A stretch of 64,000 nucleotides of DNA. It comes from Siccirubricoccus sp. G192 (GTDB lineage: Bacteria; Pseudomonadota; Alphaproteobacteria; Acetobacterales; Acetobacteraceae). The position numbers were made by a program, and so were the translations under genes. Positions 30,017-49,695 of the stretch are shown here, one piece after another (position 1 is the first letter of the stretch; every line of letters starts with the position of its first letter). The notes under the pieces were generated by a model. It made no database searches. It was given only the letters and a program-made list of their open reading frames with translations, and was not told the DNA's origin. The DNA lies in the NCBI RefSeq assembly GCF_019084075.1, contig NZ_JAHREN010000001.1, positions 930,001 through 994,000 on the forward strand. Reading direction: 5' to 3'.

Positions 30017-33127
<3,111 letters not shown>

Positions 33128-33133
33128 CGGCGC

Positions 33134-34387
33134 TCAGTCCTCCGCCCCGAAGCGGCTGTGCAGCAGCAGGGCCTTCAGGCGGAAGCTGCCCTGGGTCGCC
33201 ACCACCTCACCGGGCTCCAGCCCATCCGCCACCTCCGTCAGCCCGCCCTGGCGCAGCCCGGGACGGATGTCGCGGCGAGCGAAGCGGTTCTCCGCCAACT
33301 GCACGAAGACCACCGGCTGGTCGTCCATCCTTTGCAGCGCCGCATCGGGCACCACCAGCCCCTCGCGGCCGAGCGGCGCCTCGATCTCCACGACGGCGAA
33401 CATGTTGACCTTCAGCGCCCCATCCGCGTTCGGGATCTCGCACCGTACCCTGGCGGTGCCGGTCCGGGGATCGAGCTGGTCGGCGATATAGGCGGCGTGT
33501 CCGGGGAAGCGCTGCCCCGGATAGGCCTCGACGGCGATGCTGACGGCGGCGCCCGGGCGCACCGCGCCCAGGTCCCGCTCCGGCAGGTCGGCCTGGACCC
33601 ACACCGTCGAAAGGTCGGCCAGGGCGAAGATCTCCCGGCCGGTATCCACCAGTTCCCCCGGCGTGGCGCCGATGGCGAGCACGGCGCCGTCGAAGGGCGC
33701 GAGGATGGCGCCGCGGGCATCCTCCGGCGTGGCGCCGGCCAGGCTCACCGTCTCCGGCTCCTGCTGGCCGCCCATGGCCGCGGGGCTGTAGCGCGACAGC
33801 ATCTCGCGCCAATGCTCGGACTCCACCCTGTGGGTCTGCACCGCTGCCTCTGCCCGGGCCAGCTCGGCCTGGCGCCGCTCCACCTCGCTCTGCGCCATGG
33901 CGCCGCTCCGCACCAGGTTCTGGGCACGCTGCAGGGCGGCGCGCGCGGTCGTCGTCTCGGCCTCGGCCTGGCGCAGTGCGGCCTGGGCGCTGGCGAATTG
34001 GTGCCGCGCCTCCGCCAGATCGAGCGCATCGAGGACCGCCAGGCGCTGGCCCCGGCGCACGCGCTGGCCGATCGCCACCTCGATGGACTGCACCCGGCCG
34101 CGGGCCAGGGGGTTGATGTGGGCGAGGCGCAACTCGTTGAACCCGACCATGCCGGTGACGCGGATGGTGCGGACCAGCGGCCGCCGCTCCACCGGAGCGG
34201 TCTGCAAGCCGAAATTGCGCGCCGCCTCGGGCGACAGCTCGACCTCGGTCGGCAGGACCTCCTGCGGCACGGCGGCGGCGGGCGCCTCCGGTGCCGGCGG
34301 GGCCAGCCACCTTCCGGCGAGGAAGCCGCCCGTCGCCGCGGCGCTCCCCACGCCGGCGAGCAGCAGCAAGGTCCGGCGGCGGGTCAT
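33134..34387 (-). CDS. czcB: RND efflux periplasmic adaptor subunit (CzcB family)
   Basis: A 417-residue membrane-fusion protein with an N-terminal signal anchor (TLLLLAGVGSAAATGGFLAG), a barrel-sandwich/lipoyl region (GRVQSIEVAIGQRVRRGQRL and GAILAPFDGAVLAIGATPGE), a long alpha-helical hairpin between them and a beta-barrel (LPERDLGAVRPGAAV). It bridges the CzcA pump and the outer-membrane channel. The start overlaps the czcC stop by four bases, so the operon is translationally coupled. There is no His-rich metal-binding N-terminus as in classic CzcB. Confidence 0.92.
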   Translation of the reverse strand: MTRRRTLLLLAGVGSAAATGGFLAGRWLAPPAPEAPAAAVPQEVLPTEVELSPEAARNFGLQTAPVERRPLVRTIRVTGMVGFNELRLAHINPLARGRVQSIEVAIGQRVRRGQRLAVLDALDLAEARHQFASAQAALRQAEAETTTARAALQRAQNLVRSGAMAQSEVERRQAELARAEAAVQTHRVESEHWREMLSRYSPAAMGGQQEPETVSLAGATPEDARGAILAPFDGAVLAIGATPGELVDTGREIFALADLSTVWVQADLPERDLGAVRPGAAVSIAVEAYPGQRFPGHAAYIADQLDPRTGTARVRCEIPNADGALKVNMFAVVEIEAPLGREGLVVPDAALQRMDDQPVVFVQLAENRFARRDIRPGLRQGGLTEVADGLEPGEVVATQGSFRLKALLLHSRFGAED

Positions 34388-35607
34388 GGCATCACCCCAA
34401 GGGCCTGGTTCAGCCGGGCGCGGGCGCGGTCCTGGTTGGCCCGCGCACGGGCGCGGGTGAGGTCGGAGTCGAAGGCGGCGGTGCGGGCGCGGATCACCTC
34501 GACCAGCGGCATCTCCCCCACGGCATAGGCCTGTTCGAGTTGCCGGCGGCGCTGCTCCAGGGTGCGGAAGCCGGCCTCGGCCAGCCGCAATTGCGCCTGC
34601 GCCGCCTCGAAACCGAGGCGCGCCTGACGGCTCTCGATTTCCAGTTCGCGTTGCAGCAGCGCAAGCTGCGCCTCGGCACGGCTCACCTCCGCCTGGGCCG
34701 CGGCGAGGCGGGGGCGGTTGCGGGCCTCGGTCGCCAGCGGCAGGCGCACGACCACTCCGACCCGCGTGTCGAAGCGTTCGGGATAGGTGGACTGCTCGTG
34801 CCTGCCTTGCAGGGCGATGGTGGGGCTGTCGCGCGGAGTCGCCTCCACCAGCCGCAGGGCGGCCTGTGCCGTCCCCACCGCGCGGCGGGCCGCCAGCAGG
34901 CGCGGATGCTCCGGCACCGGGCGGGGCGGCGGGCTCCGGTCCTCAGCCAGGCTGGGCGCGGTGGCGAGGCCGGTGATGACGGCGAAGCGCGTCTGTGCCT
35001 GGGCGAGCAGGGCGCGCTGGTCGCGCAGGGCGGATTCGGCGGTCAGTGCCTCGCCGCGGGCCAGCAGCGCATCGGCGCTCGGGCTCTCGCCGCGCTGGGC
35101 GCGCTGTTCGGTGATCGCGGCAAGCTGGCCTGCCGCCGCGGCCCGGCGCTCCAGCGGCGGCCCGGCCAGCGTGGCTTCCTCCACCTGCCCGGCGGCGTCG
35201 CGCACCAGCCCGGCGACGGCAAGGCGCAACTCGCCGAGACGCGCCTCCAGTTCCCCGATGCCGGCCTCTGCCTGCCGAACCGTGGCGCGCCCTTCGCCGG
35301 GCAGCCAGACCGGCGTGCCGATCTCCAGGCCAAGGGAGGCGAAGCCCTGGTTCGAGAGGAAGCGGTCCGAGGTGGCATCGCCCTGCACGAAGGGAGAGGG
35401 CGGGAACAGCCGCCCCGCCGCATCCCGACGTGCCTCCTGCACCGCCCGCTGGGCGGCGAGCGGCCTTGCCTCGGGGCTGCGCTGCCAGGCCGCTTCCACC
35501 GCCTCGGCCAGCGTCGCGGCGTGCGAAACAGCGGACAGAACAGGCGTGGCCAGCCAGCCGAGCGCGAGCGCGGCGCCGAGAATCCGCCAGCGCCGCCGAG
35601 ATGGCAT
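34384..35607 (-). CDS. czcC: TolC-family outer-membrane efflux protein (CzcC)
   Basis: An outer-membrane channel of about 407 residues with two internally similar helical repeats (for example ATLAEAVEAAWQRSPEARPL and the later ALLQRELEIESRQARLGF). The ATG at 35607 begins a proper signal peptide (RRRWRILGAALALGWLATPV, then SHA). A longer frame from an ATG at 35778 would add 57 residues; that ATG lies in a promoter segment duplicated from the PepSY gene at 39763, so it may be only a leftover start or a leader. First gene of czcCBA. Confidence 0.88.
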   Translation of the reverse strand: MPSRRRWRILGAALALGWLATPVLSAVSHAATLAEAVEAAWQRSPEARPLAAQRAVQEARRDAAGRLFPPSPFVQGDATSDRFLSNQGFASLGLEIGTPVWLPGEGRATVRQAEAGIGELEARLGELRLAVAGLVRDAAGQVEEATLAGPPLERRAAAAGQLAAITEQRAQRGESPSADALLARGEALTAESALRDQRALLAQAQTRFAVITGLATAPSLAEDRSPPPRPVPEHPRLLAARRAVGTAQAALRLVEATPRDSPTIALQGRHEQSTYPERFDTRVGVVVRLPLATEARNRPRLAAAQAEVSRAEAQLALLQRELEIESRQARLGFEAAQAQLRLAEAGFRTLEQRRRQLEQAYAVGEMPLVEVIRARTAAFDSDLTRARARANQDRARARLNQALGVMP

Positions 35608-35802
35608 CGTCGGGTTGACGCGCCCGGTGCCGGTCCGCTCGACGGCCAGGCCGAGCGGCCGGCACCGCCGGCCCATGCCGGCTCTCGGCGCATTGGTCAG
35701 CAGGGCAGTGGCGGCAGGGATCCCGGCGGCGCCGAGGCCGGGAGCCAGGTCCTGCCGGACGGCGGCTTGTGTGGTCATGGCCCGCATTCTGGCCGGGCAC
35801 GG

Positions 35803-35841
35803 CTGACAGGTCGCTGACATGGATCAACAGCAGGCGGTCAG
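35803..35841. promoter_or_regulatory. Putative OmpR/PhoB-type operator in the czcC divergent promoter
   Basis: CTGACA at 35803 and 35814 are 11 bases apart, and two weaker half-sites on the same phase follow (CAACAG at 35825, GGTCAG at 35836). Direct hexamers on an 11-bp period are the usual operator of OmpR-family response regulators. It lies between the minus-strand czcCBA operon and the plus-strand gene at 35910. Confidence 0.6.
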
Positions 35842-35909
35842 TACGCCCTGCCTAGGGTCTCTAGCATCGGGTCAGGAAATGGTCCGGGCCCGCGCAACGG
35901 AGACCAGAG

Positions 35910-36311
35910 ATGCAGATCGCGACGAACCCCTCAACCGACCGGCCGCCATCCATCGGACGGAAAGCCGGCACGGTGCTCCGCCATGCCCTCTTCGCCTCAC
36001 TCCTCGCCGTCGCCGCCGGTGGTGCTGCCCATGCGCAGGATCCCGGTCCCTGGCTCGCCAATCAGGGCGGCAGCCTGGAGGTCGTCTCCGGCACCAGCCT
36101 GCGGCAGCCCGTGGGCGGCGGTGCCGTCGGCCTGAGCGGCGGCGGAGAGAATGAGGTGATCACCTACGGCGCCACGGCAGATACCCATGCGCAGCGTGGC
36201 CTCGTGGCCGAGATGCTCGGGGGCGGCAACGACGCCGTGGTCGTCTACCGCCAGCCGGTAAGGCCGGCGATTGCGGAGCTCGCGCGCGCGGATGGCGGTT
36301 TCCGGAGCTGA
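35910..36311 (+). CDS. Small secreted protein of unknown function in metal cluster
   Basis: A 133-residue protein with a long n-region and a signal peptide ending near GGAAHAQ. The mature part is Gly-rich (GGGAVGLSGGGENEVITYG, LVAEMLGGGNDAVVVYRQP) and has no cysteine. No family was recognised. GGAGA 7 bases before the ATG supports the start. It diverges from czcCBA across the repeated operator, so it is expected to be induced together with the pump; its promoter is the twin of the one in front of the PepSY gene at 39894. Confidence 0.7.
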   Translation: MQIATNPSTDRPPSIGRKAGTVLRHALFASLLAVAAGGAAHAQDPGPWLANQGGSLEVVSGTSLRQPVGGGAVGLSGGGENEVITYGATADTHAQRGLVAEMLGGGNDAVVVYRQPVRPAIAELARADGGFRS

Positions 36312-36367
36312 ACCTGTTCGGGACGGGCGCTGCGGCGCTGGTGCGCAGCGCCGTTCCTGCCGGATCG

Positions 36368-36395
36368 CTGACATCCCGGGTCAGCCCGCCGTCAG
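36368..36395 (+). promoter_or_regulatory. Putative operator upstream of the PepSY-cytochrome b pair
   Basis: CTGACA at 36368, GGTCAG at 36379 and CGTCAG at 36390 are each 11 bases apart, the same half-sites and phasing as in the 35.8 and 39.8 kb promoters. It lies 70 bases before the PepSY-like gene at 36465. Confidence 0.5.
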
Positions 36396-36464
36396 CGGCA
36401 CTGCACCAGTCTCCCACGTATCGCCCCGCATCGTGCAGGGCGAGCAGCCAAAGGAGAAAGACTC

Positions 36465-36740
36465 ATGCGCAAGCTCGCCATCCTCGCCGCCGCCCTCGCC
36501 TCGCTGGGTACGGTCGCGGCGGCCCAGGCCGGAAGCCTCGGCCGGCCCTGCACCTCGGCTCCGGAGGCCCAGTGGCTCCCGCTCGACGCGCTGAAGGCCA
36601 AGGCGGAAGCCGCGGGGTATCGGGTCCAGAAGGCCAAGCTGAAGGCCGCCTGCGGCGAGATCTACGCGCTGGACCGCAATGGCGCGCGGGTCGAGCTGTT
36701 CCTCGATCCGACCTCGGGCCAGATCGTCGGAAGCCAGTGA
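36465..36740 (+). CDS. PepSY-like secreted protein
   Basis: A 91-residue periplasmic protein with signal peptide MRKLAILAAALASLGTVAAA and a PepSY-like fold: LPLDALKAKAEAAGYRVQKA, then EIYALDRNGARVELFLDPTSG. It has two cysteines and is a paralogue of the protein at 39894 (shared GYRV...K, C, and VE...P-x-x-G pattern). AAAGGAG 8 bases upstream is a strong RBS. The cytochrome b561-like gene follows after 15 bases. Such small PepSY proteins are often found next to two-component systems and cytochrome b genes; a role in binding or sensing periplasmic metal or redox state is inferred. Confidence 0.78.
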   Translation: MRKLAILAAALASLGTVAAAQAGSLGRPCTSAPEAQWLPLDALKAKAEAAGYRVQKAKLKAACGEIYALDRNGARVELFLDPTSGQIVGSQ

Positions 36741-36755
36741 GCAGGGAGAGATGAC

Positions 36756-37352
36756 GTGACCATCCGCAGCGATGCGGTCGAAGCCGGCGGCGTGATGCCG
36801 CCGGCGATGACCACTGGCCCTCGGGGCACGACCACGCCGATGGTGCGGGTCTGGGATCCCTTCGTGCGGGCCTTCCACTGGAGCCTGGTCGGCCTGTTTG
36901 CCCTCGCCTTCGTCACGGGGGACGAGGTCGAGTGGCTGCACCTCGCAGCCGGCTACGCCATCGCGGCCCTCGTCCTGCTCCGGGTCGCCTGGGGTTTCGT
37001 CGGGCCGCAACATGCCCGCTTCACCGACTTCATCAGGTCGCCGCGAGAGGTGTTCGCCTATCTCCGCAATGCCGCCCGGCTGCGGGCGCCCCGCCATCTC
37101 GGGCACAACCCGGCCGGTGGTGCGATGGTCGCGGCCCTGCTCGCGCTGCTCGCCGGCGTCGCCGCGACCGGCTTCATGATGACGACGGATGCCTTCTGGG
37201 GTGCGCAATGGGTCGAAGACCTGCATGAGGGGCTGGTCAACATGATGCTGGTCCTCATCGCCCTGCACGTGGCGGGCGTCCTCTTCGCCAGCTTCGAGCA
37301 TGGCGAGAACCTGATCCGGGCGATGTTCACCGGGCGGAAGCGGACCCGCTGA
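36756..37352 (+). CDS. Cytochrome b561-like (cytochrome b/b6 domain) membrane protein
   Basis: A 198-residue four-helix inner-membrane dihaem cytochrome. Likely haem ligands are the His in VRAFHWSLVG, in EWLHLAAGY, in VEDLHEGLVN and in LIALHVAGV. It would carry electrons between the quinone pool and a periplasmic partner, perhaps the PepSY protein encoded just upstream. The start is a GTG with GGAGAG before it. The 3' end overlaps the convergent histidine kinase gene by 26 bases. Confidence 0.88.
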   Translation: MTIRSDAVEAGGVMPPAMTTGPRGTTTPMVRVWDPFVRAFHWSLVGLFALAFVTGDEVEWLHLAAGYAIAALVLLRVAWGFVGPQHARFTDFIRSPREVFAYLRNAARLRAPRHLGHNPAGGAMVAALLALLAGVAATGFMMTTDAFWGAQWVEDLHEGLVNMMLVLIALHVAGVLFASFEHGENLIRAMFTGRKRTR

Positions 37353-38736
37353 GGCCGTCACGGCACGGCAATCGAATCTCCGCCCGCAACCCGCCGAGCT
37401 CCGCCGAGCGGCCAAGGCCGAGCGAGCCACCATAAGCCTCCGCCAGATCGCCGACGATGGCGAGGCCCAGCCCGGCCCCCGGCTTCGTCGCATCGAGCCG
37501 ACCGCCGCGGGCGAGCGCGGTCGCCGCCTCCGTCTCCGGGATGCCGGGGCCGTCATCCTCGACCGAGAGCAGGACCGCGCCACCGGCCGCCTCCCGCCGG
37601 CCGGCGAGGCGGACCCGGCCCCGCGCCCATTTCATCGCGTTCTCGGCGAGGTTGCCCAGCATCTCGGCCAGGTCCTGCGCGTCGGCATCCACGATCAGCT
37701 CTGCCGGGATGTCGATGTCCCAGGCGAGGTCCTGCCCCCGCGGCACGCGGCGCAGGACATCCACCACCCGCTGCGCCACCGGGGCGGGCGCGGCCTGTCG
37801 GGCGGCGCCGCCCCCGGCCTGCGCGGCCCGCGCCCGGGCCAGTTCGCGCTCGACATGCCGCCGCATGACTTCGGTGACGGTTTCGATCTCCTCCGCCAGC
37901 TCGCCCTCGCCGCGTTCCCGCAACTGCGCCGCATCGGCGGCCAGGATGGTGAGCGGCGTCTTCAGGCCATGCGCCAGATCGGCGGCCCGTGCCCGCGCCC
38001 GCTCCAGCGCCTTGCCCTGCGCATCCAGCAGGTGGTCCAGCTCGGCGGCGAGCGGCCGCACCTCATCCGGGAACCCTGCCGCCCCCAGCCGTACCTCCCG
38101 CCCGGCGCGGACCGCGGCGAGGCGGTGCCGGAGCAGGCCGAGTGGCCGCAGCCCGACCGTCACCTGCACCCAGGCGGCGGCGATCAGGATGGCGGCGAGC
38201 AGGGCCAGGGAGGGCGCCAGGTCGAGCGCAAAGGCGCGCCCCGCGGCGTGGAGCTCCGCCCGATCCACCGCGGCCACGGCGCGCACGCCACCACCACCGA
38301 GGCTCGCGGGCAGCGTGACATGCCGCTCCACCGCGAGGAGCGAGGCGCCACCAGGGCCAGGGATGCTGTGCTGGTGCACTTCCCCGTCCCGCAGCAGGTC
38401 GGGCGGCAGCCGCAGGATCGTGTCCCAGAGCGAGCGCGAGCGCAGCACGGCCCCGCCCTCGGCCGGTGGCTCCTCCCGGATCTGCCAGTAAAGCCCGCTG
38501 AGCGGCTCCAGGAAGCGCGGCTCGGCCGGCGGCCGGAGCAGGTCCAGCGAGCCGTCCGGCGCACGCCCGAGGCCGTCGATGAGCTGGCGGAGATGCGCCT
38601 CGAGTTCGAGTGCCATCCGGCGCTCGACATGCCGCTCGAACAGCAGCACGAGGCCGAAGCCCGCCAGGGCAAGCGCGAGCAGGATGGAAGCGGCCCCCGC
38701 GGCGAGCAGCCGCAGCCGGAGCGAGCCGCGCATCAC
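37327..38736 (-). CDS. Membrane sensor histidine kinase (metal cluster)
   Basis: A 469-residue kinase with two membrane helices (LAAGAASILLALALAGFGLV and near 175-195, ALLAAILIAAAWV) around a periplasmic sensor of about 130 residues. A HAMP-like linker leads to the H-box ADLAHGLKTPLTIL, N-box GNLAENAMKWA, and G-boxes VEDDGPGIPE and GAGLGLAIVGDLAEAYGG. The layout matches QseC/PhoQ-type kinases. Its start overlaps the response regulator stop, so both are made from one message. The signal is probably periplasmic metal or cationic stress, given czcCBA nearby. Confidence 0.92.
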   Translation of the reverse strand: MMRGSLRLRLLAAGAASILLALALAGFGLVLLFERHVERRMALELEAHLRQLIDGLGRAPDGSLDLLRPPAEPRFLEPLSGLYWQIREEPPAEGGAVLRSRSLWDTILRLPPDLLRDGEVHQHSIPGPGGASLLAVERHVTLPASLGGGGVRAVAAVDRAELHAAGRAFALDLAPSLALLAAILIAAAWVQVTVGLRPLGLLRHRLAAVRAGREVRLGAAGFPDEVRPLAAELDHLLDAQGKALERARARAADLAHGLKTPLTILAADAAQLRERGEGELAEEIETVTEVMRRHVERELARARAAQAGGGAARQAAPAPVAQRVVDVLRRVPRGQDLAWDIDIPAELIVDADAQDLAEMLGNLAENAMKWARGRVRLAGRREAAGGAVLLSVEDDGPGIPETEAATALARGGRLDATKPGAGLGLAIVGDLAEAYGGSLGLGRSAELGGLRAEIRLPCRDGLSGSASAR

Positions 38737-39407
38737 CTGGCGAGGGGGGCGGGTTCGGGCACGACATAGCCGAAGCCGCGCCGCGTCTCGATCAGTTCCA
38801 CCCCGAGCTTGCGCCGCAGGCGGCCCATCAGCACCTCGACCGCATTCGGGTCGCGGTCGTGGTCGTGGTCATAGAGGTGTTCCATGAGCTCGGTGGGCGG
38901 CACCACCCGCCCGGCGTGATGCATCAGGTAGCTCAGGCAGCGGTACTCCAAGGGAGAGAGCGGCACCGGGGCGCCCTCCACCGTGACCCGCATCTGCCGC
39001 GTGTCGAGCGCCACCGGGCCGATCGTCACGACCGCCGAGGCGCGACCTGCGGCACGGCGCAGCAGGGCGCGGACGCGGGCCAGCAGTTCCTCCATGGCGA
39101 AAGGCTTGGGCAGGTAGTCGTCGGCCCCGGCATCGATCCCCTCGACGCGCTCTGCCCAGGCGCCGCGCGCGGTCAGGATCAGCACCGGGAAGCCACGCCC
39201 GCCCGCCCGCCACTTCTTCAGCACCGCGAGTCCATCCATCTTCGGCAGGCCGAGATCGAGCACGGCGGCGTCGTAGTCCTCCGTGTCGCCCTGGAACCAG
39301 GCCTCCTCGCCGTCACGGGCCAGATCCACCGCATAGCCCGCGCCCTCAAGGGCCGATCGCACACCGCGCGCGATCCGCGCGTCGTCCTCGATGAGCAGGA
39401 TCCGCAT
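38733..39407 (-). CDS. OmpR-family response regulator (metal cluster)
   Basis: A 224-residue regulator with a receiver domain (MRILLIEDDARIARGV, phospho-Asp in AVLDLGLPKMDG, Thr in LILTARG, Lys in DDYLPKPFA) and an OmpR winged helix (PLSPLEYRCLSYLMHHAGRV, EVLMGRLRRKLGVELIETRR then GFGYV). GGAG five bases before the ATG at 39407 sets the start. It follows the PepSY gene at 39410 by two bases and is followed by the kinase. It is the best candidate to bind the 11-bp-phased CTGACA repeats at 35.8, 36.4 and 39.8 kb. Confidence 0.93.
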   Translation of the reverse strand: MRILLIEDDARIARGVRSALEGAGYAVDLARDGEEAWFQGDTEDYDAAVLDLGLPKMDGLAVLKKWRAGGRGFPVLILTARGAWAERVEGIDAGADDYLPKPFAMEELLARVRALLRRAAGRASAVVTIGPVALDTRQMRVTVEGAPVPLSPLEYRCLSYLMHHAGRVVPPTELMEHLYDHDHDRDPNAVEVLMGRLRRKLGVELIETRRGFGYVVPEPAPLAR

Positions 39408-39409
39408 CG

Positions 39410-39763
39410 CTACTCCGCCTCCCGCCTCAGCACCCGCGCCGTGGCCGCGTCCACATGCACCTTGGCCAGCCGGCCAGCAGGGCCAACCACCTTGAATTCG
39501 TAGATCCATCGGCCATCGTCTTGCTCGAAGTCCACGCCCACCACCTCCCCACCGAGATCCGATCGCACACGTGCGAGGATATCGGCGAGCGGCAGCGCCT
39601 CGCCGCGTTCCAGCGCCGCACGGGCACGCTCGTGGTCGCGCTCGCGGCGGGAATCGCCGGCGCGCGCGGCAGCCGGCGCGAGGATCCCGCCGGCCGTCGC
39701 CGCGCAGAGGCCGCCGGCGAGAAGGACCAGGCTCCGGCGGCGGGTAGAGGCAGGTGTCGTCAT
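39410..39763 (-). CDS. PepSY domain protein, first gene of the two-component operon
   Basis: A 117-residue secreted protein. The N-terminus RRRSLVLLAGGLCAATAGGI is a signal peptide with an Arg-rich start; the mature part has ALPLADILARVRSDLGGEVV then VDFEQDDGRWIYEFKVV and KVHVDAATARVLRRE, a textbook PepSY domain. AGGAT eight bases before the ATG at 39763 supports the start. It heads a PepSY-regulator-kinase operon, an arrangement in which the PepSY protein is likely to act in signal input. Its upstream region is a near copy of the czcC upstream region. Confidence 0.85.
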   Translation of the reverse strand: MTTPASTRRRSLVLLAGGLCAATAGGILAPAAARAGDSRRERDHERARAALERGEALPLADILARVRSDLGGEVVGVDFEQDDGRWIYEFKVVGPAGRLAKVHVDAATARVLRREAE

Positions 39764-39787
39764 GGCGTGCATCCTGGCCGGGCGTAG

Positions 39788-39826
39788 CTGACAGGTCGCT
39801 GACATGGATCAACAGCGGGCGGTCAG
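39788..39826. promoter_or_regulatory. Putative operator in the PepSY/PepSY divergent promoter
   Basis: CTGACA at 39788 and 39799 are 11 bases apart, with GGTCAG at 39821 two periods further on. The surrounding segment, from the first codons of the minus-strand gene to the ATG at 39894, is almost the same sequence as the czcC divergent promoter at 35776-35910. This would give autoregulation of the two-component operon. Confidence 0.6.
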
Positions 39827-39893
39827 CATCCCTCCGCCAGGGTTGCCGCATCGGGTCCGGAATCGCTCCTGACCCGAGGAACGGAGACCGAAG

Positions 39894-40205
39894 ATGCGCA
39901 AGTCCCTACTGACCACCACCCTGGCCCTCGGCACCGCCGCTGTGGTCGCCCTGGCGATTGCCCCGGCCCTCGCCGACGAAGGGAGGACCGCCACCGGCGA
40001 CCATTGCCGGACCGCTCCGGGTGCGGCCCGGCTGCCGGCCGAGGCGATCGGGAAAACCCTCGAGGACCTCGGCTACCGGGTGGACCGGGTCAAGATGGAC
40101 GATGGTTGCTACGAGGCCCGGGCGATGAACGACAGCGGCATCCCCATCGAGGTCCGCTACCACCCCGTTACCGGCGATCTCGTCCGCGCCAGGCTCAGGT
40201 CGTGA
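39894..40205 (+). CDS. PepSY-like secreted protein (paralogue)
   Basis: A 103-residue periplasmic protein with signal peptide (SLLTTTLALGTAAVVALAIA, cleavage near ALA-DEG). The mature part reads AEAIGKTLEDLGYRVDRVKM, GCYEARAMNDSGIPIEVRYH and PVTGDLVRA, parallel to the protein at 36465, including the two cysteines. GGAGA 7 bases upstream supports the start. It diverges from the PepSY-regulator-kinase operon across the repeated operator. Confidence 0.78.
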   Translation: MRKSLLTTTLALGTAAVVALAIAPALADEGRTATGDHCRTAPGAARLPAEAIGKTLEDLGYRVDRVKMDDGCYEARAMNDSGIPIEVRYHPVTGDLVRARLRS

Positions 40206-40307: not shown

Positions 40308-40787
40308 ATGTTCGGCAACATGTTGATGATCACCCCGGCCGTGCTGGGCCTCGGCCTCGCCCTGGGCTTGGCCGGAGGCGCCTTGGCCGCGGAGCCGCAC
40401 GCCCATGCGGGCGAGGCGGCCGCGACCATCACGCTCGACCACGGCCGGCAATGGCCAAGCGATGCGGCGCTGCGCCAAGGCATGACGCGGCTCCGGGGCG
40501 CCATGGCCGCGGCACTGCCCGCCATCCACGCCAACCGGCTGCCGGCGGCCGGGTTCGCCACCCTGGCCGATCAGGCGCAGGCGCAGGTCGATTACGTGGC
40601 TGAGAACTGCAAGCTGCCCGAGGCGGCCGATGCCCAACTCCATCTCGTCCTGGCGCAGATCCTCGACGGGATCGATGTCATGAAGGGTGAGGGCGACCGC
40701 ACGGCGGGTGCGGCGGCGGTCGTCCAGGCGCTCAACGCCTATGGCGAGGCCTTCGACCATCCGGGCTGGGTCCCGCTTGGCCACTGA
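40308..40787 (+). CDS. Periplasmic helical protein of unknown function, His-containing N-terminus
   Basis: A 159-residue secreted protein (signal peptide LMITPAVLGLGLALGLAGGALA). The mature N-terminus EPHAHAGEAA has His pairs; then comes a helical domain with GRQWPSDAALRQGMTRLRGA, VDYVAENCKLPEAADAQLHL and LNAYGEAFDHPGW. The same pattern occurs in uncharacterised periplasmic proteins near metal-resistance genes in other proteobacteria (from memory). The single Cys with many His suggests metal or haem binding. GAGGAG 9 bases upstream supports the start. It is the last gene before an integrase fragment. Confidence 0.75.
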   Translation: MFGNMLMITPAVLGLGLALGLAGGALAAEPHAHAGEAAATITLDHGRQWPSDAALRQGMTRLRGAMAAALPAIHANRLPAAGFATLADQAQAQVDYVAENCKLPEAADAQLHLVLAQILDGIDVMKGEGDRTAGAAAVVQALNAYGEAFDHPGWVPLGH

Positions 40788-41761: not shown

Positions 41762-44700
41762 TCAGGCCGCGAGGATGAAGTCGCTCGCGGTGATGGTGCT
41801 CGCGCCCACGCCGACGAGCGTGATCGAGTTGCCGGCGATGGTGATCAGCGTATCGGCTCCGGCCTGGACAACCGACACCCCTGCGAAGGTGGCCTCGGTG
41901 ATGCCGAGCGCCGAGATGTCGAGCAGATCCTGGCCGCCGGCGGGGTTGGAGTCGAAGGCCGTGACCTGGTCATGCCCGAAGCCTGCCCCGAAGACGAAGA
42001 TGTCGTTGCCGGCCCCGCCGGTGAGCAGGTCGTTGCCGGCGCCGCCGATGTAGCGGTCGTTGCCGGCCCCGCCGATCAGCGTATCCGCGCCATCGCCCCC
42101 CGTCCAGGGTGTCGTCGCCCGTGCCGCCCCAGATCCGGTTGGCATCGGCATTGCCGAAGCCGGTGAAATTCCCGGACCCGGAGTAGACGAGGTATTCGAC
42201 ATTGCTGCCTATGGTATAGCTCGACAGCGTGGTCTCGACCCTGTCCGTGCTGCCTTCACCGGCACGCTCGATCACGACATCGCCCAGATCATCGACGATG
42301 TAGGTGTCGTTGCCGAGGCCGCCCTCCATCCAATCCGCGCCGGCACCGCCATTCAGCAGGTCCTGCGCATTGCCGCCATAGAGCGTGTCGTTGCCATCGC
42401 CGCCATTCAGCGTGTCATTGCCGTTGTTGCCGAAGGCAATGTCGTTGAAGCCGGTCAGTGTGACGTTGTCGGCCGTGTTGCCGAGGCCGACGAACCGGTC
42501 GCCGACCGTTCCCGTCGGTGCCGAGATGACCCGCTCCGTCATGCCGCCATTGTCGACGAAGGTGATGGCGACCCGGAGCTGCTGGCCGATCTGCGCCTGG
42601 CCGGGCATGAAGGATGCGCCCGTTGCCCCCGCGATATCCACCCAGGCTGCATTGTCGAAGGCCTGCCACTGGTAGGTGAAGGCAACATCCACAAGGCCGT
42701 CGAGGTCGATGATCCCGGCGGTCAGGGCCGTCAGCGCCTGGCCTTTCGTGGGTGCCGCGATATCGATGGATGCGGAGCCCGACACCGGCCGGTTCAGCAC
42801 GAAGTCGCCGTCGGCGAAGCGCATCATCTCGATGTTCCGCAGCGTATCCGTGCCATCGGCCTGCGTGCCGCGGGCATGCACGATGGTGACCGAGCCGTCG
42901 GAGTTCTTGATCACATCGTAGTTCACGCGGAGATCGGAGAACACGGCCGTGTCGATGTCACCCTCCTCGCCGCCATCCAGGATCTCCCGGACGATGACAA
43001 GCTGGCCCGGGTTGATCTCCCTTGAGAAGATCCTTGCCTGAAGCTCGGAAAGGCTGTCGGCAGACGCGATCTCCTTGTCGGGGTCGTTCCTGTCCCGCAC
43101 GCTGATCCGCACATTCAGCCAGGCATCGCCATCGATGATGTCGTTGCCGGCCTTGCCCTCGATCGTGTCGTTGCCGGCGCCGCCCAGCAGGATGTCCGAG
43201 GCATCGCTGGTGTCCATGACAATGGCATCCGGATTGCTTTCATCCCAATCCAGATGGCTGACCAGCTCGCGCAGGCCCGCAATCCGGGCCACGCCCGATT
43301 CCAGGAGCGCGTTCGAGTAGGAGGCAAGCGGTGCATTCGGCCCGGGGATGGCCGCACCACCCCCCCCGCCTCTCCGATGGCGCCGGTGACGAAGGCCCTG
43401 CCGATCAGGGTGTCGTCATGCACCCAGCCCGACAGGCCCTCCACCAGGTCGAAGCGGTCACGCAGGATGAACTGCTCCTGGTTGACGAAGATGGGGATGC
43501 CAAGGTCGGAGTTGGCAGCCTGGTTGTTGCCTTTGTGGATCGCCCAGTCGAAGCCGGCCATGCCGTTGTTACGCTGGATGCCCTCGCCCTGGAACATGAT
43601 GTCGTCGCCCGATTCGGCGTCGTAGTCGGTGTCGCCGCTCTGTCCGTTGAGGACGTCGTGGCCGATGATGGTGCTGTTGAAGAACAGTTCGGGAATTGTC
43701 GCCCGCCAAGGTATCGAAGCGGTCGCCGCCCTCGATCCAGTCATCGCCCTCGTTGCCGAGGAGGAAGTCACCGCCGCTGCCGCCCAGGATGAAGTCACCC
43801 TCGGTACCGCCGAAGACCTGCTTGCCATCCGGACCGGCGACGAGGAAATCCGATCCCTCATTGCCGAAGACCAGGGCGAGGCCGCTGCCACCATGGATGA
43901 CATCGTTTCCGGCTTCGCCATGCAGCATGTCGGTGAAGCCGATATCGGTGCCGGCATTGACGATGATATCGTCGCCGTCGCCGCCATGGACCTTGTCCAC
44001 GCCGTAGCCGGCCTCGAGGTAGTCATCGCCGCCACGTCCCCAGACCGCATCGTCGCCACCGCCGGAGATAATGGTGTCATTCTCCTCCGTGCCGCCGATG
44101 ACGACGTGATCGAGGCCGTTGTATGCAATGAAATCCGTGTTGCCGTCGCCGTCGAGGTCCTTGCGGACCACGAGCGGCGCAAGCGCGTCGAGCACCGGAT
44201 TCGCCGGGGTCCGCGTCGGGTCCTCGCCGAGTTGCTTCGACTTGTCCATCTCGAGGATGATGCTCACCGCGGCAAACAGGTCTGCGGGCAGGGCCGTTGC
44301 GCCGTCGTCGCCGAGGTCGGTGTTGCGCATCGCGAGCTTGGCGAAGGAGTTGCCCTCCAGCTCGTTGAGCAGGTTGAGGCCCTGGGCGCGTGACAGGTAG
44401 TAGAACCGGTCGGCGTCCTGCAGGCTTTCCAGCGTCATCTGGAAGACGAAGCTGAAGGTCGAGCCGAGCATGCCGCCGAAGGACATCTTCTTCTCGGCCA
44501 GGCCGCCGATCCAGAAATCGATGAGGTCGAGCCCGGTTTCCTTGCCGGCCCAGGCGCCGGTGCTGTTCAGGTAATCGACCCGGTCCGATGGCGCTCCGGT
44601 GCCGCCCAGGACCAGGTTGGTGGCTGCCGCACGCTTGCCATCGAGGGTCGTCGCGCCGGCGATCGTGGCATGGGTGCCGTAGGCCGCGATGAAGTTGATG

Positions 44701-46683
44701 ATCGAGGCCGGGTTCTTGAGGTTCATCGCGAAGTCGACCCAGCTCTCATAAGGCTTGAGCTGCGTATCGTTGGTCGCCTCGAAGAACGTCTCACGCGCCG
44801 CGTTGAGCGAAGGCATGCCGGCATCGCGGCCGCGGGCGATGTTGATCGCGGCGAGGTCAAGCGGCAGGCCAAGGAGGTTGCTGCGGAGCGCGGGCGTGAC
44901 GAACTCGTCGATCTCGTTGCCGACCTGCCGGCTCATGCCGCGGATGATCGCTCCGGCCGCCTGGTCCGCCGTCCCGGCATTGTCGATTCGAGGGGGTTGA
45001 GGAAGGCCTGGATCAGCCCGATGTCGTCCTCGACGGGCTTGCCGTCCACCATCCTGATCCGCGCCACGTCCTCGTTCAGCATCGAGTGCCCGAAGCGATA
45101 GACGACATGCGCGATTCCGCGGTGATGGCGGGATCGATATCGACCGACGGCTCGAACACGAACGCGTCGATGTCAGGCTGCATCTTGCGGGCGAATTCCT
45201 CGAAGACGAGGTGCTGGTACTCCATCTCATTGACGAAGCGGCCGGCCTGGAACAGGCGCTCGCCGTCCCAAACCAGCGCCGCCCTGTCTGCCTCCGTCTC
45301 CGGGATCGTAGCCACGTCGACGAGCAGCCACTCGTTGAGGAAGTCGAGATCGCCCGATTCCAGGGCGAGCTTCTTGGTCTCCTCGACGAGGCGGTTATGC
45401 TCGGAATGGAAGACATGGTGGACCGCCGTGAGGCCGATATTCTCGTTGCCGCGGCCGTCACCGGTGATGTAGTGCGCGTCGAGCAGCTCGTTGTCGTAGG
45501 CGAGCTTGTTGCCGAAGAGGTCGGTCGGAAGGCCCGCATTGCCGGCTTCGCTGTCGGCATCGGCGGCCAGTGTGCCATCGCCCTTGGTGACCGGCACCGC
45601 GTTGTGCGCGATATCGTCGAGGAAGGCATGGCCGGTGCGGAAGGCGCCGAGCGCGCTCGGATCCACCGGGCTGGAGGGATTGCCCTCGGTCAGCACGTCA
45701 TCCGCGGTCCCGAACAGGTTGTCCGGGCCGAGGCCGGTGACAAGCTGCGGGTAGCCATTGGCGCCGGGGATGAAGTTGCCATAGGCATCGGCGACGATCA
45801 GCGGGATGTTGCCGATATCGAGGTCGGTCAGCTCGATGCCGAGGACTTCCCGGGCCTGCTCCTTGATGTCCGCCCAGGTGGCGAGGCCACCCTTGCTGCC
45901 TTCGAGCAAATTGCCCGTGGCGATGGGCTTGCCCTCCGGCCCCAAGATGTATTCGCGCATGAAGACCTGCTTCGAGGCATGCGAACCATAGGTCTGGTTC
46001 TGGTCGATCCAGGGCGTCGTCCTGTTGACCGGGTCTTCCGACGCGCGCGTCAGCACCATGAAATTGGTATGGCCGCCGGGCACATAGAGCGGGTCGTCGG
46101 GCTGCAGCGGGATATAGACCGTGCCGTTTCCGCCTTTGGTGACGAGGTCGAGGCCGTGGTCGAAGAACTGGCCGAACAGCGTCATCCAGCCGTTGAAGGG
46201 GGAGGAGAGCCCCTCATCGGGCGAGACGTTCGGAAGGAACACCAGGTCCGGCGTGTCGGGATTGCCGTCGTGGTCGATCCTGAAGGCGTCACCGCTCATG
46301 GCAGCGAGCGCCGCAGGATTGGCGGCGGTCTGGTCGACGATGAGGTTGGAGATGATCCGGGGGTCGGCATCAGCCACGTCCCGGGTGGGCGCAGATGCGC
46401 CGTAGTCGTTGTTGGTCAGCACGCTGCCCGGGCCGAACGCGATGCTGTCGTCGCCCTCGTTCCGATAGGCCGGGGTGAGCAGTTCCTTGAACGGCTGGTC
46501 GGCGGCGCCCCAATCTTCGCGGCCGGGGATCAGGTTGTTGTAGCTGCCATCCACGGTGCGCAGCCCATAGGGCAGAAGCGGGTCGCCGACCAAGGAGGCC
46601 AGGTCGCCACCGGCCGCATGTGCCTCCGCAATTTTGATCTGCTGCAAGATAAATTGGAGGTCGTGCTTGACGATGTTCACCAT
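41762..46683 (-). pseudogene. Secreted animal-type haem peroxidase with RTX repeats; five indels
   Basis: If five single-base indels are corrected (net one base added) this is a 1640-residue extracellular protein. The N-terminal two thirds are an An_peroxidase domain: distal His in LFGQFFDHGLDLV, catalytic Arg in HSEHNRLVEE, and after a break the proximal His in YRFGHSML. The C-terminal third has Ca2+-binding RTX nonapeptides ([42 protein letters not shown]) and an uncleaved C-terminal signal for type I secretion. Breaks are near 45115, 44987, 43692, 43363 and 42100. The protein sequence is conserved right up to each break, which speaks for sequence errors or very recent loss. A two-component system lies upstream. 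Confidence 0.8.
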
Positions 46684-47334
46684 TGTCTCTGTCCTCTCCC
46701 GGCGCATTGCCAATGAAGCAATGGCTATTGCTTGCCTCGGGCGGATGGTTGGGAAGGCAAGAACCTGAGCAGCGATGGAGGGATTGGCCAAACTGGCCAA
46801 AGGGCTCCGCAAAAAGACAGAACATTCAGACCTTCATACTCGGCCTGTTTTGTAAATCGTTCCGAATTTCGGCGGTTACCCCGCACTCCATGCTTGCTGG
46901 TGCTTCTACCCGTGAGGGTTGACCTTCATTTCCGTCGCCGATTGCCTGCCGATTGATACGGGGGGCGGTGGATTTTTGTGATTCACGACATTGGCATTAA
47001 ATTTTCGACATAGATCAGAAGTTGACCAAATTGCGCCGGATGGATCGGCATCGGAAGATTCCGAGCCGCTATGCAACCTTAACGGGTGATTTCCTGCGCA
47101 GAGACTCTACCGAAAGGGGCAATCTTGCCAGGCAAGAGCCTTGGCGGGCCGGGAGTCCCAACCTGGATCATCCAGGAGTTGGTGATTTCCGATAGAACGG
47201 TAAGGAAATGGTTAGAACTTGGAGAGAGTCCTGCAACCGCCTGGCGCCACTCGCCCAGACCCCGCACGGCCACACCACAACCCTACGCTGCGCGTACCGC
47301 CAACCGCAGGGCCCGGCGATACGGGAGGGCTGGC
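46684..47334. other. Non-coding region upstream of the peroxidase, locally AT-rich
   Basis: About 650 bases with no convincing gene. The middle part (about 46840-47060) is clearly less GC-rich than its surroundings and contains TTTTTGTGATTC and ATTAAATTTTC patches. It should hold the peroxidase promoter and the 3' end of the response regulator transcript. No terminator with a T-run was seen. Confidence 0.4.
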
Positions 47335-48069
47335 CTATCGCTCGGATCCGGAGGGTTGCGCGGCAGTGGCCCTCGCCGCTGGCTCGGCGGCGAGCCGGTA
47401 GCCGAAGCCCCGCATCGTATGGATCAGGGGCATCGCCTCGCCCTCGTCCAGCTTCTGGCGGAGGTAGCGGATATAGACATCCACGACCTTCGTGCCGGGA
47501 TCGAAGCCGTAGCCCCAGACATTGGCCAGCAACCGGGAGCGGCTTACGGCCTGGCCCTTGCTCAGCATGAGGAATTCGAGCAGCGCGAATTCCTTCGCGG
47601 TCAGCTCGATCTCCCGCCCGCCCCGCCTGGCGCGGCGTGTCCTCGGGTCCAATTCCAGGTCGCCGACGCGGAGCGCCGGCTCCGGACCCGGGCCCGCCGC
47701 GATGCGCCCCCGCCGCACGAGGGCCTCCACGCGGGCGACCAGCTCGTCGAAGGCGAAGGGCTTGGTGAGGTAGTCGTCGGCGCCCCCGCCGCGCAGCCCC
47801 TCGATCTTGTCGCTGAGCGCGTTCCTCGCCGTCAGCAGCAGCACCGGCGTGGTCAGGCCCCGCCCGCGCAGCGCCCGGCAGAGCCCGAGCCCGTCGCCCG
47901 AGGGCAGCATGCGGTCGAGCACGAGCAGGTCGTGATCGGCCGCAAGCGCGCGCGCCAATCCATCCGGAACGTCGCTGGCGACCTCCACGAGATGGCCCTC
48001 GGCCTCCAGGCCGCGCTGCACGAAATCCGCGATCCGCGGATCATCCTCGACCAGCAGTATCCTCGCCAT
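47335..48069 (-). CDS. OmpR-family response regulator
   Basis: A 244-residue regulator with receiver (MARILLVEDDPRIADFV, phospho-Asp in LLVLDRMLPSGDG, LLLTARN, DDYLTKPFAF) and a winged-helix output domain (ELTAKEFALLEFLMLSKGQA, VVDVYIRYLRQKLDEGE, MRGFGYRLA). Its start lies inside the last codons of the kinase gene, so the pair is co-translated. The C-terminal tail after the winged helix is low in complexity. The peroxidase gene is the next gene downstream on the same strand, about 650 bases on, and is a possible target. Confidence 0.92.
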   Translation of the reverse strand: MARILLVEDDPRIADFVQRGLEAEGHLVEVASDVPDGLARALAADHDLLVLDRMLPSGDGLGLCRALRGRGLTTPVLLLTARNALSDKIEGLRGGGADDYLTKPFAFDELVARVEALVRRGRIAAGPGPEPALRVGDLELDPRTRRARRGGREIELTAKEFALLEFLMLSKGQAVSRSRLLANVWGYGFDPGTKVVDVYIRYLRQKLDEGEAMPLIHTMRGFGYRLAAEPAARATAAQPSGSER

Positions 48070-49695
48070 TCCCCAGACCATCCGCCATTATGGGCAGGCG
48101 CAGCCGGACCTCGGTCGGCCCTTGCGGCGCGCTGCGCAGTGAGATGCCGCCGCCGTGCCGCTCGATGATCCACTTCGCGATCGACAGGCCGAGGCCGCTG
48201 CCATCGGCCCGGCAGGACCGCGCGTTGCGGCCGCGGAAGAACCTTTCGAAAGCCCGGTCGAGTTCCTCGGGGGCGAGCCCCGGCCCCGTATTGGCGATCG
48301 CCACCTCCGCCCAGCCGGGCTCGGCCACCGTGACGCGGACCTGCACCGGCGCCGCCGCATCGCCGTATTTCAGCGCATTCTCCACCGCGATCAGGACCGC
48401 CTGCTTCAGGCGCTGGGGATCGGCATCGACCGGGATCGGCTCCTCCGGCCATTCGCCGTCGAGGAAATCCTCGGGCCTGCGGCCTGTCAGTGCCGCGCCC
48501 TCCTCCACCGCCTCCGCCACCACATCCTGCAACGCGACGGGCTCGGGCGCGAAGGCGGTGATCTCCGCCTCGGAGCGTGCCAGGAACAGCAGGTCGCCGA
48601 CCAGGCGGTCCATCAGGGTTGCCTGCCGCACCACCATCTCGAGCGCGCGCTCCACCATGCCGGGCGGGGCGCGGCCACGCAGCGCAAGCTCGGCCTCGCC
48701 GCGCAGCACCGTCAGCGGCGTGCGCAACTCGTGGCTCAGATCCGCCAGGAACCGCGCCCGCGTATGGTCCACCTGCCGCAGCCGGAGATTCGCTTCCTCC
48801 AGCTCCAGGGTGCGCCGCCGCACTTCCTCCTCGAGCCCATGGCGGGCCCGGAGCAGCGCCTCGCGCTGCGTGCCGAGCTCCATCGCCATGGCATCGAAGC
48901 GCAGGGCGAGCGCACTCAGCTCTCCCCCGTTCCTGACCTCGCCCGCGACCCGGCGGCCGAGGTCGCCGGCGCCGATCGCCGCCGCCGCCTCGGCCAGCGC
49001 GGCGATCGGCTGCATCAGCGAACGGCGCAATTGCCAGCCCGCCAGCAGCGTGGCGCCGAGCGCGAGCAATGAAACCAGGCCGGTGGTCCAGGCCATCTGG
49101 TGGCGCCGCCAGGTCGCCATGGCCTCGGCTTCGGCCACCTCGCTGCGCACCTCCGCCAGGGCCTCCGCGAGCAGGCGGTCCAGCTCGGCATCCAGGCGTT
49201 CCTCGATCTCGTCGCGGAACAGCGCCACGGCCTGTTCCTGCCGCCCCTCGGACCGCAGGGCGAGCACCCGCTCGGCCGCACGGTCCACCTGGCGATAGAG
49301 TCTCCAGACCACTTCCAGCCGCCGCTGCTCCCGCAGTTCCTGTTCCAGATCCTCGCCGCCGGCCACGAAGAATTCGACCCCTGCCGCCGTGACCCGCTCC
49401 AAGTCGGCGAAGCCGCGCTCCAGATCGGCGCGGGCATCGTGCAGTTCCTGGAGCTGCGCGCTCCCGAGCAGCAGAAGCTCCCCAAGCTGCTCGGAATAGC
49501 GATGGGCATTGCCGGTGACCTCGGCCGTCGCCGCGATTGCAGCCGGGCCAGCCGGACCCGCCTGGAATGCCAGTCCGTCATGGAGATGAGCAACGCCGCC
49601 TCGCCCGCCATCAGCAGGACGGCGAGCACAACCAAGGTCTGCAGCGCAGCGATGCGCGCCCGGATGCTCACGCCACGCCACAGTCCCAGGCGCAT
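48041..49695 (-). CDS. Membrane sensor histidine kinase; one frameshift
   Basis: With one base added near 49540 this is a 551-residue kinase. The N-terminus (MRLGLWRGVSIRARIAALQ then TLVVLAVLLMAGEAALLISM) is a signal anchor in one frame; the rest is in another, from about IAATAEVTGNAHRYSEQL: a long helical periplasmic sensor, second membrane helix LVSLLALGATLLAGW, HAMP, H-box FLADLSHELRTPLTVL, N-box VENALKYG and G-boxes TGPGLAPEE and GSGLGLSIAKWIIERHGGG. The helical sensor resembles 4HB/CHASE3-type domains. It overlaps the response regulator start. Confidence 0.85.

Follow-up and report, generated by a model that had tools for sequence, protein, structure and literature searches.

Introduction

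Two-component modules coupled to PepSY proteins are widespread, and one of them was recently shown to control envelope adaptation; a described operator was found for few. DbfQRS of Vibrio cholerae is reported to respond to outer-membrane damage, and the promoter of its operon has been used as a reporter of regulator phosphorylation (PMC12714742). The motif given for BqsR, the regulator of the Fe(II)-responsive BqsRS/CarSR system of Pseudomonas aeruginosa, is TTAAG-N6-TTAAG, with the most downstream pentamer lying over the -35 element, and 432 candidate sites were counted in the genome when up to two mutations were allowed (PMC4682146). For FeuP of Sinorhizobium meliloti, TTCA-N7-TTCA has been put forward as a candidate motif, and leaderless mRNAs are known in Sinorhizobium (PMC3616915). 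A TGTCAG operator described for a PepSY-linked regulator was not recognised among the titles and abstract beginnings of the papers that searches of the open-access literature listed. Here, we analyse three 39-base-pair (bp) elements, P1, P2, and P3, located in a cluster of PepSY, two-component, and metal-efflux genes of Siccirubricoccus sp. G192. The window, that is, the whole stretch of DNA analysed, comprises 64,000 nucleotides (nt) of the forward strand (NZ_JAHREN010000001.1, positions 930,001–994,000), and coordinates count from its start.

Our analysis indicates that P1–P3 are very probably the operators of the neighbouring OmpR/PhoB-type response regulator (38733–39407), which would form, together with a PepSY protein and a histidine kinase, a DbfQRS-like module. 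At the sequence level, this reading is founded on the sites, their conservation, their geometry, and the neighbouring genes. The operator variant is what is new, since the PepSY/two-component kind of system is already known.

Results

Three operators with four half-sites

The three elements are arranged as follows.

35803–35841: operator P1, CTGACA-N5-CTGACA-N5-CAACAG-N5-GGTCAG, between czcCBA (minus strand) and the gene at 35910 (plus strand)
36357–36395: operator P2, CTGCCG-N5-CTGACA-N5-GGTCAG-N5-CGTCAG, ahead of the PepSY_2 and cytochrome b561 genes
39788–39826: operator P3, CTGACA-N5-CTGACA-N5-CAACAG-N5-GGTCAG, between the PepSY-regulator-kinase operon (minus strand) and a PepSY_2 gene (plus strand)

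Each element is 39 bp long and consists of four half-sites, which read CTGAC/GTCAG and follow an 11-bp period around a central dyad. The words reported by the first-pass annotation of this DNA are all present: CTGACA-N5-CTGACA at 35803–35819 and 39788–39804, GGTCAG two 11-bp periods past the second CTGACA (35836–35841 and 39821–39826), and CTGACA-N5-GGTCAG-N5-CGTCAG at 36368–36395. That annotation lacked the fourth half-site (CTGCCG at 36357; CAACAG at 35825 and 39810), and the dyad was therefore overlooked as well.

P1 and P3 are identical at 38 of 39 bases within the operator and at 23 of 30 on the minus-gene side, while identity farther out is 30–40% in an ungapped comparison. The two are thus copies of each other and reflect one event rather than two independent ones, and this flank comparison led us to reject their identical 17-bp boxes as independent evidence. 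P2, with its site at 36368, is not such a copy.

The skeleton CTG-N8-CTG-N11-CAG-N8-CAG has three matches in the window against 0.01 expected, a number reached in none of 100 shuffles. The whole 5.96-Mb Siccirubricoccus genome holds four matches, against none in the reversed control: P1–P3 and a fourth at C1:5049821–5049859, just ahead of a second, paralogous PepSY-regulator-kinase operon. Over 22 regulator-carrying genomes, 27 matches were found in 14 genomes, compared with five in the reversed control, and 18 of them sit, by position, at PepSY-regulator-kinase operons or at their PepSY_2/cytochrome genes. Extra matches in the single relatives L274, L275, and L279 had no clear target gene when inspected by eye. 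The first-pass annotation had also proposed a genome-wide motif scan; exact CTGACA-N5-CTGACA gave two matches, both in the cluster. GTCAG-N6-GTCAG has two further matches in this genome, which overlap with open frames and were attributed to chance, and TTCAG-N6-TTCAG has four exact ones, including the operator of the paralogous system.

Conservation of the box with the regulator

Of 80 regulator loci, we studied the 23 in which regulator identity reaches 53% or more (53–92%; L047–L069), which come mostly from Alphaproteobacteria and in a few cases from Gammaproteobacteria, and used the other 57 (33–48%) as a control. In 20 of these 23, TGTCAG-N5-TGTCAG with no or one mismatch precedes the regulator gene on its own strand. 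The box lies 336–402 bp before the regulator in 19 of the 20 and farther out in L063; the three loci lacking it are the truncated L048 and two of Vibrio type. Within 760 bp upstream of the regulator, the box at up to one mismatch was found in 0 of the 57 control loci. In the relatives, a PepSY_2 gene, with or without cytochrome b561, often lies on the opposite side of the operator, and a P2-like skeleton also precedes the orthologous PepSY_2/cytochrome b561 genes of Alsobacter and of two Neoroseomonas genomes. The comparison across relatives bears out the earlier claim of an OmpR/PhoB-type direct-repeat operator and, along with the skeleton counts, supports the proposal that the local regulator reads it. 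As predictions, autoregulation by this regulator and its control over the PepSY genes have strong support.

A less biased test, in which direct repeats of identical pentamers were compared at spacers of 3–11 in the upstream regions of 78 regulators, gave a consistent result. At spacer 6, the leading words are TGACA, CTGAC, and GTTCA, which fall outside the top eight at every other spacer; there, GC-rich words lead. A non-redundant set of 102 regulators was obtained from 108 loci by dropping three short or empty frames, one identical sequence, and two proteins without the helix pattern; 40 of 45 further places listed without a locus were added as sequence. By a box rule fixed only after the upstream repeats had been inspected, 69 of the 102 regulators carry a box (26 of GTCA, 39 of TTCA, two of GTAA, and two of TTAA type), compared with 0 of 102 on reversed sequence. 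The dyad occurs at a centre gap of 11 in 21 loci and at gaps of 5–10 and 12–17 in none. Boxes of the TTAAG class among the relatives agree with the BqsR motif as given in PMC4682146. That the box arose by chance or from base composition, with no regulator reading it, is hardly credible: the 17-bp box taken alone does come close to background at up to two mismatches, but this explanation is contradicted by the conservation of position and phase and by controls near zero.

TGTCA-N6-TGTCA with its 11-bp period is also the geometry of Escherichia coli PhoB, whose bound sites include TGTCATAAAGTTGTCACG (phoA) and one TGTCAGGCCGCTGTCATC within gloC (PMC10294691), and P1–P3 could accordingly be read as Pho boxes bound by PhoB. 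We consider this improbable. The exact repeat occurs twice in the Siccirubricoccus genome, both times at the cluster, where profile searches found no phosphate gene, and the pst region of the same genome has no exact repeat; its only candidate, with two mismatches, stands before pstS and may be due to chance. Moreover, the box tracks the PepSY-regulator operon across many alphaproteobacterial genera and two gammaproteobacterial loci, and the paralogous operon carries an altered half-site.

In the genome of L057, a second exact box (L148) is located at a distance of about 4.5 kb from the regulator; close to it, as judged by eye, are a secreted-looking protein with a high content of R, D, H, and S and a frame resembling a membrane protein.

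Promoter geometry and a predicted leaderless start

A -10-like hexamer, YAnnnT, starts 11 nt past the proximal half-site, and 91% of the 69 loci have A as its second base. Given this step, the box pair occupies the -35 position. The hexamers in the window are listed below, those on the plus strand having been assigned by eye.

35786–35791, minus strand: CAGAAT, toward czcC
35853–35858, plus strand: TAGGGT, toward the gene at 35910
36407–36412, plus strand: CAGTCT, toward the gene at 36465
39771–39776, minus strand: CAGGAT, between the proximal TGTCAG (11 nt away) and the PepSY ATG at 39763 (7 nt away), a spacing common in the relatives
39838–39843, plus strand: CAGGGT, toward the gene at 39894

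An ATG opening a frame of at least 70 codons is found 22–26 nt past the half-site in 49 of the 69 loci (17 of 26 GTCA-type and 32 of 39 TTCA-type), and any 5-nt window clear of this interval holds at most seven such ATGs. This position of the start codon leads us to predict that many of these bacteria make the PepSY mRNA without a leader.

A paralogous system with a one-base change in the half-site

The second PepSY-regulator-kinase operon of the genome (C1:5046500–5051500; L278) has a four-half-site operator of GTTCAG type and a predicted leaderless start, and its regulator is 61% identical to the local one. CTGAAC-N5-CTGARC-N5-GTTCAG-N5-GTTCAG, or a one-base variant of it, is present in this paralogue and seven more of 16 loci. 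The FeuP-class word TTCA-N7-TTCA occurs at the paralogous operon and not in P1–P3.

Half-site type runs parallel to a residue of the wing. The residue following T is R in all 26 GTCA-type regulators (TRRG in 25, TRKG in L063) and other than R in all 39 TTCA-type regulators; six TRRG proteins have no box by the rule. The helix residue following N is A or S in the 26 GTCA-type regulators, as it also is in two TTCA-type exceptions (L041 and L269). In a receiver-domain tree, the box type changes once between the GTCA and TTCA classes, which amounts to one independent pair. The match with the wing residue is therefore a lead to a recognition code rather than a proof of one. We tentatively suggest, at a likelihood somewhat short of even, that PepSY-coupled regulators share a family-wide operator grammar, in which paralogues in the same cell would be separated mainly by GTCAG versus TTCAG half-sites matched by the wing residue (T-R-[R/K]-G versus T-nonR-R-G). 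This grammar would comprise two back-to-back tandem boxes in 11-bp phase, a -10 element eleven nt away, and, often, a leaderless PepSY start.

Genes of the cluster and linkage to the metal pump

The genes around the operators are as follows.

30017–33127, minus strand: czcA-like heavy-metal RND pump (TIGR00914, CusA/CzcA; 1159 bits, cut-off 701)
33134–34387, minus strand: czcB-like membrane-fusion protein (PF16576)
34384–35607, minus strand: czcC-like outer-membrane efflux protein (PF02321), with a hand-chosen start in an open frame that extends to 35820
35910–36311, plus strand: putative secreted protein downstream of P1, for which no family scored above cut-off
36465–36740, plus strand: PepSY_2 protein of 91 amino acids (PF13670, 82.5 bits)
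36756–37352, plus strand: cytochrome b561 of 198 amino acids (PF01292, 98.6 bits)
37327–38736, minus strand: histidine kinase of 469 amino acids (PF02518), with PhoQ and PmrB as best models, below cut-off
38733–39407, minus strand: OmpR/PhoB-type response regulator of 224 amino acids (PF00072 and PF00486), the proposed reader of the operators
39410–39763, minus strand: DbfQ-like small secreted PepSY protein of 117 amino acids (PF03413, 35.3 bits, cut-off 24), with a signal peptide recognised by eye
39894–40205, plus strand: PepSY_2 protein of 103 amino acids (PF13670, 70.1 bits)
40308–40787, plus strand: secreted-looking protein with no family assigned, possibly on the plus-strand transcript from P3

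The operon at 37327–39763 shows the traits of a DbfQRS-like module, a small secreted PepSY gene beside genes for an OmpR-type regulator and a histidine kinase. Among solved sequences, the local regulator matched PmrA/BasR best, and the CarR receiver (8gc6) was also matched. The protein at 40308–40787 is 51% identical to copies located beside a PepSY_2 gene in Microvirga (L049) and Alsobacter (L051). No copy of the secreted protein at 35910 was found in 39 relative loci or in the three czcC-orthologue loci compared.

Orthologues of CzcC were sought in 397 Acetobacteraceae genomes (E value of 1e-80 or better, with the four best candidates per genome scored) and were found in four, the Siccirubricoccus genome included. 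In three of the four (this genome, G412, which is the L052 genome, and G379), the PepSY-regulator-kinase genes adjoin, with a GTCAG box between them and czcC; the fourth, G466, has neither the two-component genes nor an exact box within the 14 kb examined. The G379 locus has a dyad with one mismatch before a cytochrome b561 gene (PF01292), which is followed by czcCBA. At L293:4874–13339, the PepSY, regulator, kinase, cytochrome b561, and czcCBA genes form one run, and boxes stand before its first gene and before the cytochrome gene. Among the 22 regulator-carrying genomes, a CzcC orthologue of at least 74% identity was found in two, one of them being this genome, and one has a relative at 38%; behind the kinase in L055, a more distant RND pair (26% and 41%) is encoded. 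Because the linkage is found in few regulator-carrying genomes, we regard czcCBA as an accessory part, though probably a member, of the regulon, and its link to the regulator is moderately supported by these neighbourhoods.

It is unlikely, yet conceivable, that the operators are real while czcCBA at P1 is not functionally regulated, P1 having arisen recently next to czcC as a copy of P3. The near identity of P1 and P3 over the operator and the minus-gene side would be expected in that case, as would a czcC start well inside the transcript, but the two other genomes with a czcC orthologue beside the same two-component genes have boxes of their own, and the one in G379 precedes the cytochrome b561 gene and then czcCBA.

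A further proposal is that the system is a dedicated heavy-metal sensor of the CzcR/CopR kind, with the PepSY proteins acting as metal chaperones. The adjoining czcCBA genes here and in two further genomes are in line with it, and the kinase and the regulator match the metal two-component models TIGR01386 and TIGR01387. However, neither score comes near its curated cut-off (86.9 against 292.55 for the kinase; 172.6 against 279.2 bits for the regulator), so a CzcR/CopR assignment was set aside; a CzcC orthologue was found in two of the 22 regulator-carrying genomes; and the DbfQRS reporter is described as silent to Fe(II)/Fe(III) and responsive to lipopolysaccharide defects, polymyxin B, and thymol (PMC12714742). 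We accordingly give the metal-sensor proposal a small chance.

These comparisons divide the regulon assigned to the cluster by the first-pass annotation. A shared regulon is supported for the operon itself, both PepSY_2 genes, and cytochrome b561, and for czcCBA through linkage in two further genomes. Its proposed metal response is without support; the nearest systems that have been studied sense outer-membrane damage or Fe(II), and metal efflux looks accessory.

Elsewhere in the window, long minus-strand frames at 41762–46825 encode calcium-binding-type repeats and a peroxidase-like part (by eye); they are split across frames, which may reflect breakage of the gene or a frameshift in the sequencing. 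Outside the cluster, at 47335–48081, another gene for an OmpR-type regulator was recognised by eye.

Discussion

We infer the binding, activation, and signal parts of the proposed mechanism from the arrangement of sites and genes. The operator is composed of two tandem boxes placed back to back, CTGACn-N5-CTGnnn-N5-nnnCAG-N5-nGTCAG, with half-sites that are more or less complete. A dimer of the phosphorylated regulator is expected on one tandem pair. With this pair over the -35 position and YAnnnT 11 nt downstream, RNA polymerase would be recruited to the gene on that side, and a divergent site could serve both flanking genes. The targets in the window would be the regulator's own operon, the two PepSY_2 genes, cytochrome b561, the gene at 35910, and czcCBA. 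By analogy with DbfQRS, a disturbance of the envelope is the most likely signal, gated by the action of the PepSY protein on the kinase, and metal stress may be one of its causes. In a module of this kind, the PepSY protein would be expected to bind the sensor domain of the kinase and shift it to phosphatase.

Several observations weigh against the assignment of P1–P3 to this regulator. P1 and P3 contribute a single count, and the minus side of P2 has no divergent gene. The exact four-half-site skeleton has no match in eight of the 22 regulator-carrying genomes, and nine of its 27 matches lie elsewhere than at the PepSY systems. At up to two mismatches, the 17-bp box has 96 genome matches against 59 in the control, which is near noise. 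By the rule, 33 of the 102 regulators have no box, including six with the same wing residue. At P1, approximately 180 bp separate the -10 element from the probable czcC start (35607) downstream, so that the transcript of czcC is less clear than the one expected for the PepSY operon. The exact pair of G379 is directed toward the kinase, and a degenerate pair (CGACGG, CGTCAG), with TAGAAG 11 nt beyond it, is directed toward the cytochrome gene and czcCBA. Finally, 11 of 27 exact TGTCAG-N5-TGTCAG boxes in 20 relatives are located outside this system, compared with two in the reversed control, and three of the 11 precede TctC receptor genes (L137, L141, and L146). The L141 box is divergent from the gene of an OmpR-type regulator that scores with the QseB and TctD models below cut-off, and it may be a candidate TctD-like operator. 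The boxes at TctC genes imply that the GTCAG half-site is not exclusive to one regulator family, and TctC-linked or other OmpR-type regulators may read the same box.

One genome thus offers an operator of exact geometry, a small regulon, and a paralogue whose operator differs by one base. Both the specificity of these regulators and the way in which envelope sensing is tied to periplasmic PepSY proteins, a b-type cytochrome, and metal efflux become directly testable.

This study also allows a comparison with described systems. UzcRS of Caulobacter is likewise alphaproteobacterial, and its U/Zn/Cu-responsive regulon is reported to be rich in envelope proteins; in contrast, its published site, CATTAC-N6-TTAA, is unlike the box described here (PMC8963506). 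A UzcR-type regulon, our first lead, was set aside because this site does not fit P1–P3. PhoB shares TGTCA and the 11-bp period, but TGTCA is mostly followed by T/C and not G in the E. coli sites, the genes belong to the phosphate regulon, and a four-half-site dyad is not described in the part of PMC10294691 compared.

The resemblance to FeuPQ/FeuN lies in the regulator-kinase pair, in a negative modulator predicted to be cotranscribed, and in the same period, as described in PMC3616915. Its word is TTCA, whereas that of the window system is GTCA, and the TTCA type belongs to the paralogous system. BqsRS, as presented in PMC4682146, likewise has a pentamer direct repeat with a 6-bp spacer, an 11-bp period, and overlap with the -35 element. 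The differences are in the word and in the number of sites: TTAAG-N6-TTAAG is absent from P1–P3, whose half-site is GTCAG, and the genomic candidates of BqsR number in the hundreds, against one cluster here.

DbfQRS differs in that the two Vibrio-type loci show GTAAG repeats rather than GTCAG, and the operator, the divergent PepSY_2 gene, cytochrome b561, and czcCBA are unnamed in the text of PMC12714742 that was compared. In DbfQRS and DbfQRS-like modules, as in the cluster described here, a small secreted PepSY gene directly precedes the genes for an OmpR-type regulator and its kinase (PMC12714742).

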